Shown: piece after piece, positions 27,373 to 31,840 of the stretch
How positions within the stretch are numbered: position 1 is the first letter of the stretch
How the letters are laid out: each line of letters begins with the position of its first letter
NCBI GenBank assembly: GCA_027621355.1
Contig: JAQCBZ010000011.1
Location: forward strand, 1-44,934
DNA length: 44,934 nucleotides
Source: Bacteroidota bacterium
GTDB lineage: Bacteria > Bacteroidota > Rhodothermia > Balneolales > Balneolaceae
Reading direction: 5' to 3'
Program-made: the position numbers and the translations under genes
Notes under the pieces: generated by a model
Database searches by the model: none
Told to the model about the DNA's origin: nothing
The model's input: the letters and a program-made list of their open reading frames with translations, nothing else

Positions 27373-28608
27373 ATGGATTTATTTGACAAGCTTATAGACC
27401 GTCCTGGACCCCTGGGGTCCTTCACCAAAGACGGCTATGGGTACTACACGTTTCCCAAACTTGAAGGGCCCATTGGTCCTGAAATGACATTCCAAGGCAA
27501 AGAGATGGTTGTATGGAGTGTGAATGACTATTTAGGCCTTGCTAACCGACCAGATATCCGTAAAGCAGATGCAGATGCGGCAGCGGAGTTTGGCTTTAGT
27601 AATCCCATGGGCGCACGTCTCATGACCGGTAATACAGAGGAGCACGAGGAGCTTGAGAAAGAGTTAGCAACCTTTATCCATAAGCCATCGGCCTTGTTAC
27701 TCAACTTTGGGTACCAAGGGATCATGTCGGTTGTCCACTCGTTGGTCGATCGGAATGATTTCTTAATCTATGACGAATTGAGTCATGCTTGCATTGTGGA
27801 TGGGAAGCAATTGGCGATGAGTGATAAGAGTGTCTTTAAGCATAATGATCTCGAGAGTCTAGAAAAGCAGCTCCAAAGAGCTGTGAAGCGGATGAAACCC
27901 CATTCATCGATTCTTGTTGTGACCGAAGGCGTTTTTGGCATGACGGGGGATCAGGGACGACTCAAAGAAATCATCGCGCTCAAAGAAAAGTACCCCTTCC
28001 GTCTGTTGGTTGATGATGCGCATGGATTCGGGACTCTTGGGCATGATGGATCAGGTGCAGGTACGGAGCAGGGATGCATGGACGGTATTGACGTCTACTT
28101 TGGCACCTTTGCCAAGTCTTTAGCGCTGATTGGAGCGTTTGTTGCAACAGAACCTCATGTCGTAGAGTTTATGAAGGCGAATCTGCGAAGTCAGATTTTT
28201 GCCAAGTCGTTGCCGCGTGCTCTAGTTCGCTCTGCACGTAAGCGTCTTGAGGTGATTCGTTCACATCCTGAGCTCCGCGAGAAGCTCTGGGCAAATACGA
28301 ATGCTCTGCGTAATGGGCTCCGAGAGATTGGGTACAATGTCCTGCCTTCTGAAAGCCCCGTAACGCCCGTTCTCACCCAAGGTAGCACCGACCTTTGTAC
28401 AGACATCATGCGCATTCTGCGTGAGGAGCATGGCATTTTTGTCAGTGGCGTTACTTACCCAGTCGTGCCCAAGGGGATGGTGATTATCCGGTTAATCCCT
28501 ACCGCTGCCCATGAACCTCATCACATTGAGAAAACGCTTGATGCATTCAGGGCGATTTCTGAGATGGTGTTTGAGGAAGCCGCAAAGCTAGAAGCTCAGC
28601 CCGCTTAG
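27373..28608 (+). CDS. Serine palmitoyltransferase-like alpha-oxoamine synthase
   Basis: A PLP enzyme of 411 residues that condenses an amino acid with an acyl-CoA. It has the alpha-oxoamine synthase blocks: NDYLGLANRP, LNFGYQGIMS, the PLP-ring Asp in LLVDDAHGFGTLG, and the Schiff-base Lys248 in GTFAKSLALIG. The GTFAKS form and overall length match the Bacteroidota serine palmitoyltransferases that start sphingolipid synthesis. 8-amino-7-oxononanoate synthase or 2-amino-3-ketobutyrate ligase are alternatives, but no biotin or threonine genes are near. The stop is five bases from the convergent DEAD-box-derived gene. Confidence 0.85.
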   Translation: MDLFDKLIDRPGPLGSFTKDGYGYYTFPKLEGPIGPEMTFQGKEMVVWSVNDYLGLANRPDIRKADADAAAEFGFSNPMGARLMTGNTEEHEELEKELATFIHKPSALLLNFGYQGIMSVVHSLVDRNDFLIYDELSHACIVDGKQLAMSDKSVFKHNDLESLEKQLQRAVKRMKPHSSILVVTEGVFGMTGDQGRLKEIIALKEKYPFRLLVDDAHGFGTLGHDGSGAGTEQGCMDGIDVYFGTFAKSLALIGAFVATEPHVVEFMKANLRSQIFAKSLPRALVRSARKRLEVIRSHPELREKLWANTNALRNGLREIGYNVLPSESPVTPVLTQGSTDLCTDIMRILREEHGIFVSGVTYPVVPKGMVIIRLIPTAAHEPHHIEKTLDAFRAISEMVFEEAAKLEAQPA

Positions 28609-28613
28609 CTGTA

Positions 28614-30341
28614 CTAGTTACCAAAGATTTTTTTAATCGCTCCGAAAAGCCCTCCCGAGGTTTTGGCACCTTCTTTACCACCATCGAGTCGATCAAAATT
28701 GGCTCGAGGCAACCCATACGGAGTAATCGGTTTCTCTGGGGCACGCTGCCCACGTCCTTTTCCTTTTGGCTTTTGTGGCTTGCTGCCACCTTTGCCACGA
28801 TTTTGGGATCCTTTTTGACCTTCCTTAGATGGATCGCCCTGTGATTGCCCACCCAGCGACTTGTTCGATCCTCGTGATCCTTTGGTGGAGCGCTTATCCT
28901 GGGAGCTTTTTGCTGTTTTTTCGTCCTTTCCATCCTGTCCTGATTTTGAAGAAGACGAATTACGGTCATTTGAGCGTTTCTCTTTGCGTCGGTCAATCAA
29001 TTCAACTGGCTTTAGCTCACTAAGTCCATCAAGTACTAGTGGAGTGCAATCGAGACCTGAGTCTGCTTTGAATGTCTCAAAAGACTCTTTGTCTTTCTCT
29101 TGTACAAGAAATAAGGCTTCTTGAGGGGTATCGGACCACTGCACTAAGCTCATGTCGTGCAAAAAAGTATCTCTTGAGCGAGGGAGTAAAGTGTAGATCG
29201 CTCGAGACACCTGCTTAAGAGGCTCTTGTGATTTTAGACGTCCACCAATTATGGCGAAGTTTACGTCCCCAGATTGAAATCGATTAATTCGATAATCATA
29301 GGTAGAGCGTCGCAATTTAGAATGAACGGATATCACTCCTAAGTCAGCTGCACGAAGCTCTTTGAACAAGGCATCGGCCTCTGCAGGACCTTGACAAAAA
29401 ACGACTGCACGTTGAGAGGAGGACTCTTTAAGTCGTTTAACTACCGTGGCCAAAGGGAGGTCATTAGGAATCATCGCACGCTTCAGCAACGGGGTAATCG
29501 TTTCTAAGAGCTGCGTATCATCCTGACGGCTACTTGATTGCTCTTTGGACTGAGTCGTCTGCTGTGATTCGGAGGTGGCTGCTTTCTGCTCTGGCAACTC
29601 TATGGATGCGTCTGCGCTATCCGTCGCCGGTGGTGTATCTATCAGCGACGCAGGTGCTTCGTTTTGCACAGGTGCTTCTTGCTCAGGCGTTGTAGGCACA
29701 ACGGCCTCAAGGCCCTCAATGGGTGGATCGATTCCTACATGATGTGGGTCTCTTACCCAAGTCAGCACCTCAAGTCGAAGCGCCATGGTCGCTTTTTTAC
29801 CAAGTTGGACTACACGCTGTTTGGGTGAAATAACTCGAGGAAATACAGCCTTCACATCCTCAAGCGTATCCATTTTATGGGCACCCATCATATAAAGAAG
29901 ATTTATGTCACGCAAAAGAGCTCTGTTTGTCTCTAATGCCTCTTTGAGTACAGTAGGTGTTCCAACAATTGCATGGGGTGCTTTGCCGATAATGTTGGCC
30001 ACTTTCTGCGCCTCCATATCCGCAGTGATTGCCTCTGCATCGAATGCGATTTGCTCACCTAATTTTCGGAGAAATGTTACCACCTTTTTGACACGTGACT
30101 CATCATCGCATAGGACAAGCATGCGAGTCCCATAGCCGAGTGTTGTTTTGGAAAGCTCGTTCATCGTCCAGATGAAAGGGCCTTTCTCTGCGTGATCTTT
30201 TTGAGTTGATGCCAGAATGAGATCTTGGCCTGTTGAGCAAAGCTTTAAAACTTCTTTGAGCTCTGGAGTGGGTTCGCTGAGTTGCACATCAGCCAGCCCC
30301 TTTAATACAGGAGCTTTGAAACGAAATGTAGTATATGACAC
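28614..30341 (-). CDS. DEAD-box helicase-derived protein lacking catalytic motifs
   Basis: The 575 residues follow a DEAD-box RNA helicase from end to end, with the signature motifs eroded. The Q-motif region reads SEPTPEL (Gln lost). The Walker A position reads ASTQKDHAEKG in place of A.TG.GKT. Motif Ib keeps VGTP (126-129). The DEAD position reads MGAH (152-155), and SAT reads KAT (183-185). A Ser/Glu/Gln-rich linker (about 210-275) joins a second RecA-like domain. That domain keeps AVVFC (312-316), but motif V reads IIGGRLKSQEP and the HRxGRxGR position reads HDMSLVQWSD. A Lys/Arg/Ser/Gly-rich tail (about 450-545) looks RNA-binding. The frame is open throughout, so this is probably a functional non-ATPase RNA-binding scaffold, not a decaying gene. 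Function is inference. Confidence 0.85.
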   Translation of the reverse strand: MSYTTFRFKAPVLKGLADVQLSEPTPELKEVLKLCSTGQDLILASTQKDHAEKGPFIWTMNELSKTTLGYGTRMLVLCDDESRVKKVVTFLRKLGEQIAFDAEAITADMEAQKVANIIGKAPHAIVGTPTVLKEALETNRALLRDINLLYMMGAHKMDTLEDVKAVFPRVISPKQRVVQLGKKATMALRLEVLTWVRDPHHVGIDPPIEGLEAVVPTTPEQEAPVQNEAPASLIDTPPATDSADASIELPEQKAATSESQQTTQSKEQSSSRQDDTQLLETITPLLKRAMIPNDLPLATVVKRLKESSSQRAVVFCQGPAEADALFKELRAADLGVISVHSKLRRSTYDYRINRFQSGDVNFAIIGGRLKSQEPLKQVSRAIYTLLPRSRDTFLHDMSLVQWSDTPQEALFLVQEKDKESFETFKADSGLDCTPLVLDGLSELKPVELIDRRKEKRSNDRNSSSSKSGQDGKDEKTAKSSQDKRSTKGSRGSNKSLGGQSQGDPSKEGQKGSQNRGKGGSKPQKPKGKGRGQRAPEKPITPYGLPRANFDRLDGGKEGAKTSGGLFGAIKKIFGN

Positions 30342-30343
30342 GA

Positions 30344-31345
30344 TTATTGTGGATTTGAGCTAACCCCTCCCCCGTGGTCAGAAGCTGATGAGCCCTTCGT
30401 CGTAGCTTTATTGGAGCTAGCAGACATAAATTCTGGTGGGGCTTCATTCAACGTATAAAAACGGGTAGTTGGATAAGCAAAGTCTAAGGTTGGATCGGCA
30501 TTGAATCGATCTAAAATCTCTTCCCAGAAATCTTCCGCCATTTTGCGACGTCTTCTAGGGTGAGATAAATATCGAACGGTCAGCCGAACCCCAAAGTCCG
30601 TCACATCTGTGTAAACGATGGGGGTTAAGTGTGTGAAATGTATGAGATATGAATTGGATGCACGGCGTAATTCCTTTTCGGCAGTTGGCTTAAAGTCTGC
30701 TATTAACTTGTCTGCAACGTCTTGTAGCAAGGCTTTGGCTTTTTTCCAATCACTTTCAAAGGTGACAACGACAGCGATTTCATTCCAAATAAACTCGAAA
30801 TCAGAGGTGTAATTGAAGATATTCTCCCGAAACACTTTTTGGTTTGGTATGTGGATCACACGTCCTGTGCTTTGATCCGCCTCCACCCAATTTCCAATTT
30901 CGAGAAGTGTAAACTTCATCATCCGAATATCGATTACGTCACCTTTTACATTCCCCACTTGTATACGATCACCTACAGTAAATGTTCGCTGAGTGACTAA
31001 AAAAAGCCACCCTGCAAAATCACTTACAGGATCTCGAAGTGCAATGGCCAACCCAGCGGACAAGAGTCCAAAGAATGTGGCAAGCGATCCTATGCCATCA
31101 AACCAAATCTGGATGATAAAGACAAAGGTGAGGAAGGTAAGAATGGTTCCAAGGTTCTTTCGCCAACGGTAACGTTCTGCTGTGTCTTGTACTCGATTGG
31201 ATAAAAAGCGCACAATGACACTGCGCAAAAACCAAAAAATGACAATAACGGCAAACGTTTCAATCAGCTGGAGAGTGATGTTACCCTCCTTGAATACTTC
31301 CCGAAAGAAAGCTGGAATTTGTTCGGTAATCGAATCCATATTCAT
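30344..31345 (-). CDS. MscS family mechanosensitive channel
   Basis: A small-conductance channel of about 333 residues. It has transmembrane helices near the N terminus, the pore-lining helix block GLLSAGLAIALRDPVSDFAG, and the beta domain signature FTVGDRIQVGNVKGDVIDI. The C-terminal cytoplasmic cage domain follows. It releases solutes on hypo-osmotic shock. I chose ATG 31345 (MNMDSITEQI); the frame is open to 31426, but that would abut the divergent secG start. The gene ends two bases from the DEAD-derived gene, so the two may be co-transcribed. Confidence 0.88.
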   Translation of the reverse strand: MNMDSITEQIPAFFREVFKEGNITLQLIETFAVIVIFWFLRSVIVRFLSNRVQDTAERYRWRKNLGTILTFLTFVFIIQIWFDGIGSLATFFGLLSAGLAIALRDPVSDFAGWLFLVTQRTFTVGDRIQVGNVKGDVIDIRMMKFTLLEIGNWVEADQSTGRVIHIPNQKVFRENIFNYTSDFEFIWNEIAVVVTFESDWKKAKALLQDVADKLIADFKPTAEKELRRASNSYLIHFTHLTPIVYTDVTDFGVRLTVRYLSHPRRRRKMAEDFWEEILDRFNADPTLDFAYPTTRFYTLNEAPPEFMSASSNKATTKGSSASDHGGGVSSNPQ

Positions 31346-31429
31346 ACATTCTAAAATTACCAAAAAAAAGCCTGAGATTTCGGTAGAAACCGTTATTTTT
31401 ACCTGTTCATAAAAGATTGGTGTCAAACT

Positions 31430-31840
31430 ATGTTATACGGAATTATCCTTGGGGTTATTGTCCTCGTCTGCGTGTTATTAATTATTGTTGTCTTGCTACA
31501 GCCTGGACAGAAACAAGGCTTAAGTGGTGGATTAGCTGCTGGCATGACCGGTGGAGGGGGTATGGGTGCTCGCCGAACTGCTGACTTATTGAGTAAGAGT
31601 ACGACTGTACTCGCAAGCATCTTCTTAGGTCTATGCGTGCTTGCCAACTTTGCGATTGATCGAGGTGGACAAGCTACTCAAAGTGCCGTCCAGTCATCAG
31701 GAGTCCCTGTCACGCAAGGCACCGGCTCTCAAGCTCTACCAATGCCTCCACAAGAGGATGCTTCAGGTGCTGCCACAGAAGAGTCCGTAACAGATGGTGG
31801 TAATGTGCAACAAGTCACACCACCAAATCAGGATAATTAA
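31430..31840 (+). CDS. secG: Preprotein translocase subunit SecG
   Basis: The 136-residue protein has two membrane helices: MLYGIILGVIVLVCVLLIIV, followed by VLLQPGQKQGLSGGLA, then a Gly-rich loop (GMTGGGGMGARRTADLLSKS) and a second helix (TVLASIFLGLCVLANFAI). This is the SecG pattern of the SecYEG channel. The Ser/Gln/Thr-rich extension after residue 80 is longer than in E. coli SecG but common in this phylum. It is divergent from the mscS-like gene. Confidence 0.93.
   Translation: MLYGIILGVIVLVCVLLIIVVLLQPGQKQGLSGGLAAGMTGGGGMGARRTADLLSKSTTVLASIFLGLCVLANFAIDRGGQATQSAVQSSGVPVTQGTGSQALPMPPQEDASGAATEESVTDGGNVQQVTPPNQDN

Follow-up and report, generated by a model that had tools for sequence, protein, structure and literature searches.

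A DEAD-box protein stripped of its catalytic motifs appears to be kept by selection across one family of Bacteroidota

The window analysed here, a 44,934-nucleotide stretch of contig JAQCBZ010000011.1 from a Bacteroidota bacterium of the family Balneolaceae, carries an intact gene for a DEAD-box helicase homologue in which all the catalytic motifs have been lost. The protein almost certainly belongs to a pseudohelicase family maintained by selection. Strong selection has kept the dead version in nearly all of the host's taxonomic family, so the protein probably now serves the RNA machinery as a partner without enzymatic activity. Conservation across the family, disappearance of the RNA groove, a C-terminal tail in common with an active helicase and a graded loss of the gene in one genus go beyond the original prediction for this gene. 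A literature search on bacterial DEAD-box pseudoenzymes or Balneolaceae DEAD-box proteins found nothing relevant, and as far as that search could find, there is no earlier description of a dead DEAD-box protein that a whole bacterial family keeps beside an active paralogue ending in the same tail. The features of the locus are as follows.

27373 to 28608, forward strand: PLP-dependent enzyme (kbl-like; PF00155), a convergent neighbour that adjoins the pseudohelicase in most relatives
28614 to 30341, reverse strand: pseudo-DEAD-box gene, an open reading frame of 575 aa with a GTG start; family profile E 1.5e-154, the window sequence itself being one row of the profile
28617 to 28652, reverse strand: C-terminal amphipathic tail GLFGAIKKIFGN, common to the active DEAD-box paralogue
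28653 to 28721, reverse strand: family-specific box YGLPRANFDRLDGGKEG and spacer, consensus LPRPTYDGLSGGRxGK
28722 to 29003, reverse strand: basic Lys/Gly/Ser-rich arm, probably disordered, residues 447-540, net charge +16 over 93 residues
29004 to 29468, reverse strand: RecA-like domain 2, residues 292-446, aligned with eIF4A domain 2; without motifs V and VI; dN/dS of 0.025 over residues 275-450
29136 to 29162, reverse strand: position of motif VI (HRIGRTGR), reading LHDMSLVQW
29220 to 29249, reverse strand: position of motif V, IGGRLKSQEP in place of ATDVxARGID
29469 to 29723, reverse strand: long linker between the two domains, residues 207-291, acidic with a net charge of -10 over 85 residues, mostly unconstrained (pN 0.41 over residues 207-274)
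29724 to 30341, reverse strand: RecA-like domain 1, residues 1-206, aligned with eIF4A domain 1; ATP motifs lost; dN/dS 0.032 (NG86)
29877 to 29888, reverse strand: position of motif II (DEAD), reading MGAH
30186 to 30212, reverse strand: Walker A (motif I) site, with ASTQKDHAE in place of AxTGxGKT; GKT or GKS in no member
30344 to 31426, reverse strand: mscS (PF00924), a neighbour by synteny across a 2-bp gap, likely co-transcribed here
31430 to 31840, forward strand: secG (PF03840), a neighbour by synteny

The undamaged frame that had been predicted is exact in the open reading frame listing, with GTG as start codon and zero internal stops over 575 codons, a run that the base composition of the window would produce by chance with a probability of ~3e-14. 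Searched alone, the protein gives weak matches to helicases: in Pfam, zero DEAD matches and Helicase_C at E 8e-5, just below the cut-off; in NCBIfam, a match of domain 2 to SrmB at 2e-11 (43.6 bits versus an equivalog cut-off of 507 bits) and of domain 1 to DbpA at 6e-9; and in the PDB, eIF4A at E 1.5e-7. The doubt left by these weak single-protein matches is removed by the family profile, which covers eIF4A over its first (residues 15-222) and second (residues 222-382) RecA domains at E 6e-47. The two RecA-like domains thus align end to end, as expected from DEAD-box ancestry and from the lengthwise alignment originally claimed, and chance similarity to helicases is ruled out. Pfam searches of family members found PF00270 in 23 of 27 and PF00271 in 26 of 27; weak matches to DNA polymerase III chi (HolC) in 8 of the 27 possibly reflect just a shared fold. 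An AlphaFold prediction made from two sequences only, the window protein and its closest relative, reached a pLDDT of 33.

The loss of all catalytic motifs was borne out by a motif-by-motif reading. The window protein has ASTQKDHAEKG (residues 44-54) at the Walker A site, MGAH (residues 152-155) at motif II, GKK at motif III with SAT absent, and HDMSLVQW at the motif VI site, and even the Q-motif glutamine and the Asp/Glu of motif II are replaced. None of the marks of a DEAD-box enzyme (Walker A, the DEAD of motif II, motifs V and VI) is present, and ATPase activity is, as read from the sequence, lost. The same holds beyond the window: neither a Walker A/P-loop nor the HRxGRxGR of motif VI occurs in any of the ~46 distinct members read. 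We compared the pseudohelicase columns with those of 20 canonical relatives. Members retain the Walker A lysine in 7% and its threonine in 0%, the motif II glutamate in 41% and last aspartate in 11%, the SAT threonine in 7%, the motif V threonine and arginine in 0% each, and the second and third arginines of motif VI in 2% and 7%. Residues that contact RNA have fared no better, with the motif Ia arginine at 0%, GG at 0-9% and the two positions of QxxR at 13% and 7%. What survives is mostly structural to judge by its positions: in motif Ib the proline (100%) and the arginine (80%), in motif IV the phenylalanine (93%), then the phenylalanine after QxxR (98%) and INYDxP (>90%). The Q-motif glutamine is retained in 93%. 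Motif II itself reads IDEAH in one part of the family, IVDQAE in another and MMGAHK in the genus of the window, and there are other variants besides.

Within the host's family, a first search gave matches in 52 of 58 genomes. A profile of 27 rows then matched 72 of the 80 genomes sampled there at E<1e-50, and in one further genome the locus holds a copy that has diverged, while zero of 37 other genomes of the order reach this level; their best matches (1e-25 to 1e-45) look like canonical helicases, which was borne out at the loci read. Scanning 395 genomes of the phylum with a profile of domain 2 plus the tail, we found members at E <=3.6e-62, except for one genome of genus g5 that has no copy, and the best outsider at 5.7e-33; the class-level scan with this profile gave the same picture. 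All outsider loci read have GKT, DEAD and HRxGRxGR, and this, with the gap in profile scores, indicates that the protein family is confined to one taxonomic family. Scans of viral contigs for further relatives found none. In a maximum likelihood tree a branch supported at 100/100 separates all the pseudohelicases from the other sequences, and in that tree the window genus and its neighbour G015 are on long branches, among the fastest-evolving of the family. The closest relative is the copy in L034 (Bacteroidetes bacterium UBA1860), a second genome of the same genus, assembled separately; this copy is intact and 82% identical over the whole protein.

Using L034 as the partner, we estimated dN/dS for the window gene by the method of Nei and Gojobori (NG86); dS is high in places, which makes single values approximate. 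Domain 1 gives 0.032 and domain 2 gives 0.025, the C-terminal box 0.13 and the basic arm 0.20, and the linker is unconstrained. Seven neighbouring genes have values of 0.021-0.085, so both degenerate domains lie within or below the range of their surroundings, and in nine other pairs across the family domain 1 has values of 0.02-0.075. At the sequence level, this pattern is the signature of a functioning protein. Together with the lack of Walker A and motif VI in every orthologue read, it gives good support at that level to the selected, non-ATPase role that had been proposed. As the term is used in PMC9539457, a pseudohelicase is a helicase homologue without catalytic residues that is kept by selection rather than decaying, and both are found here, with the exception of genus g5.

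The host genome has one canonical DEAD-box helicase, of 527 aa and with every motif (G000:C9:7615-9195), which is the sole other clear full-length match. This helicase and its orthologues in the order have in common with the pseudohelicase (i) the two RecA domains, (ii) an N-terminal start of MKF or MSF, (iii) a GYH segment after motif Ia, (iv) a non-ATG start, (v) a basic arm and (vi) an amphipathic tail (KGFWGIVKSFLPKF, GVWSKIKNIFGSD). It differs in having AQTGTGKT, DEAD, SAT and HRIGRTGR, in lacking the LPRPTYDGLSGGR box and in being at another locus. Among canonical helicases, those with the tail score 187-235 bits with the family profile versus 125-189 bits for those without it. A tailed DEAD-box helicase, still carried in active form, thus appears to be the ancestor of the pseudohelicases. 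We infer an origin by duplication from the common start codon, GYH segment, tail and profile scores; the tree is unrooted and does not fix the sister group.

Downstream of the basic region, the retention of which had been predicted, are a conserved box and an amphipathic end, neither of which had been singled out before. The end was described by a pattern (G-hydrophobic-aromatic/hydrophobic-small-x-hydrophobic-K/R/T-x-x-L/I/F within the last 22 residues) that occurs in 38 of 49 pseudohelicase entries and in 13 of 46 canonical DEAD-box entries, these being all of the tailed group. It occurs in none of ~330 unrelated control ORFs, the two matches in the control set being a pseudohelicase and a helicase fragment. 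The pattern was composed after the sequences had been seen, so the contrast with the controls carries more weight than the exact fraction. Relatives of the window protein end in, for example, GVFGWVKKLFD. In the box before the tail, L544, P545, L552, G555 and G558 are invariant in the 27-row family alignment. A search of seven genomes found LPRPTYDGLSGGRxGK in no protein but the pseudohelicase, and a shared box therefore points to no partner. The sequence of the basic arm drifts while its net charge stays at +13 to +23 in all 46 members. In part of the family the linker is long and bears a strong negative charge (down to -45), and in the rest it is short and neutral; acidic linker and basic arm might pair within the protein, or the linker might mimic RNA.

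Among the roles considered, we favour that of a partner or regulator of an active helicase, acting by the tail common to the active paralogue. Duplication of a tailed DEAD-box helicase would have been followed by a single loss of catalysis near the base of the family, and the pseudohelicase would now function without ATP. Its amphipathic tail and that of the active helicase would dock at one common site, either a membrane surface or an RNA-processing complex. There a partner or RNA would be held by the basic arm together with the rigid core of RecA domains, and the pseudohelicase would recruit, space or compete with the active helicase. Docking of this kind is a tentative suggestion, since the tail may have been inherited without a common function, and we put forward with similar reserve the idea that the dead paralogue regulates or scaffolds the active one through the common docking tail, as an ATP-independent brake or platform. 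Utp25 and Deinococcus PriA, both described below, are the precedents for such a role. As a working account, the selected family and the docking mechanism taken together seem to us, on balance, somewhat probable. The host has RNase E/G; a search of its assembly, which is 90% complete, gave no RNase Y, a possible membrane dock.

The RNA-binding scaffold of the original prediction survives in part. RNA binding through a retained helicase groove finds no support in the retention figures, and with the RNA-contact residues mostly lost (motif Ia arginine, GG, QxxR, and threonine and arginine of motif V at just 0-13%) binding by this route is unlikely; the basic arm or a new surface is the route left, if any. 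A non-catalytic RNA scaffold or chaperone, in which the arm binds rRNA or mRNA and the core serves as a protein platform with no relation to the active helicase, would fit the constant charge of the arm and the retention of fold-defining residues. However, basic Gly/Ser/Lys arms are common among ordinary DEAD-box proteins, which makes the arm unspecific, and the tail in common with the active paralogue would be left unexplained. We consider this reading possible and rather doubtful, and prefer the partner or regulator of an active helicase.

The surroundings of the gene bear on a further alternative. In most relatives the gene order is secG, mscS, SRAP, CAAX-protease-like, pseudohelicase, kbl-like, and inheritance at this one locus is shown by the comparison of sequences to have been vertical over a long time. 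The assemblies of the window genus, at just 1.5 Mb, are without the SRAP and CAAX genes, and the pseudohelicase there abuts mscS. The neighbours are not RNA genes, and synteny thus points to no pathway. A membrane-tethered scaffold, with the tail in the inner membrane and the core recruiting a partner in the membrane or envelope, with a possible link to mscS, secG or the CAAX protease, would account for these conserved membrane-protein neighbours and for the amphipathic end, the mean maximal hydrophobic moment of which is 0.557 versus 0.432 in controls. But that gap is ~1 control standard deviation, the active helicase has the same tail yet sits elsewhere in the genome, and conserved neighbours, partly on the opposite strand, need not share a function. 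This tether is improbable in our estimate, and the partner or regulator of the active helicase remains the reading we favour.

Continued use of nucleotide through a non-canonical pocket is very improbable. Some members do keep IDEAH, and the motif II glutamate and the Q-motif glutamine are retained in 41% and 93% of members; but no member has kept the P-loop, the two motif VI arginines in contact with the gamma-phosphate are retained in 2-7%, and the window protein is without both the Q-motif glutamine and the Asp/Glu of motif II.

Loss of the gene is, from the genomes compared, under way in genus g5, where it is divergent, broken or absent. The copy in G046 is intact and very divergent. At the syntenic place in G023 (L178:4029-5487) is an apparent pseudogene in at least 4 fragments, with several frame shifts and stops, some of which could be assembly errors. 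In G004, G032, G040 and G055 there is no copy between the CAAX-protease and kbl genes. Disruption or deletion in most of g5 means that the gene is not essential everywhere. In three other genomes of the family no copy was found; two of these are ~80% complete and are missing the kbl gene too. A decaying pseudogene or assembly artefact in the window, which we reject on dN/dS and conservation, is the most improbable of the readings: the window genus and G015 are fast-evolving, with small genomes, and g5 is genuinely losing the gene, but dN/dS is 0.025-0.032 in both domains, the separately assembled L034 of the same genus has an intact copy, the protein is conserved family-wide, and true decay as in g5 (frame breaks in G023, an empty locus in the four genomes without a copy) looks unlike the window gene. 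The original prediction had named orthologues with intact motifs, together with relaxed selection, as the signs of decay, and we found the opposite on both counts.

Other features of the locus were observed. At 15 syntenic loci an SRAP-family gene (HMCES/YedK-like, PF02586) lies two places from the pseudohelicase (e.g., L067:6281-6922, L076:6192-6863 and L069:6247-6918, all on the reverse strand); the window genome has no such gene. We take Cys at residue 2, GFYEW and the His of HxRMP to be the catalytic residues of SRAP proteins, as in HMCES. These genes have E, K, S, N or another residue at position 2 and GFYKW or GFYIW for GFYEW, and they lack the His of HxRMP, so that the SRAP gene seems, by its residues, to be a second conserved pseudoenzyme at the locus. 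The start codon of the pseudohelicases is TTG in most members, GTG in the window genus (30339-30341), G015 and G011, and ATG once (L027); the tailed active paralogues across the families of the order mostly start with TTG, and one locus (L099) was called with ATG. A non-ATG start kept for so long may reflect translational control. In relatives (e.g., L033, L007 and L013) the ~45 bases upstream of the gene hold a conserved leader, TTTGAAAATTGAAC or TTAATTGAAATATTGA, and then a GAGGT Shine-Dalgarno sequence; the leader resembles the Bacteroidota promoter -7 box (TAnnTTTG) with a short 5' UTR. No such leader was seen in the window genus, in which the gene directly adjoins mscS.

The dead and live paralogues form a natural pair for studying the function of a DEAD-box core in the absence of ATP and for asking if dead copies serve bacteria as regulators of RNA helicases, and the graded loss in g5, from divergent to broken to absent, offers a ready comparison of phenotypes. 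Pseudokinases and pseudoproteases are well known. Pseudohelicases are rare; Deinococcus PriA and the Utp25 of eukaryotes were the two proposed cases in a count made in 2022 (PMC9539457).

Among bacterial DEAD-box proteins, the best matches of the family profile in NCBIfam, and some of the best in the PDB, are CshA, RhlE, SrmB and DbpA; these are catalytic, however, and the window protein falls far under their equivalog cut-offs. Utp25/Def, a pseudohelicase of the eukaryotic SSU processome proposed to be a helicase cofactor or scaffold, is likewise derived from a DEAD-box protein, with two RecA domains, functional motifs missing and a protein kept by selection (PMC9539457). It differs in being eukaryotic, in keeping motif Ia and partial motifs Q, IV, V and VI, in having its disordered region at the N-terminus and in being essential in yeast (PMC9539457). 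The window protein has no match to PF06862 (Utp25_C), and one of 27 members has a weak one (E 0.0036). The PriA of Deinococcus radiodurans is, like the family described here, a bacterial pseudohelicase with lineage-specific loss of helicase motifs, and it binds a partner helicase, DnaB (PMC4504706). However, it is a PriA of DNA replication restart rather than a DEAD-box RNA helicase, and it is the organism's own PriA (PMC4504706), whereas here an active paralogue coexists with the dead one.
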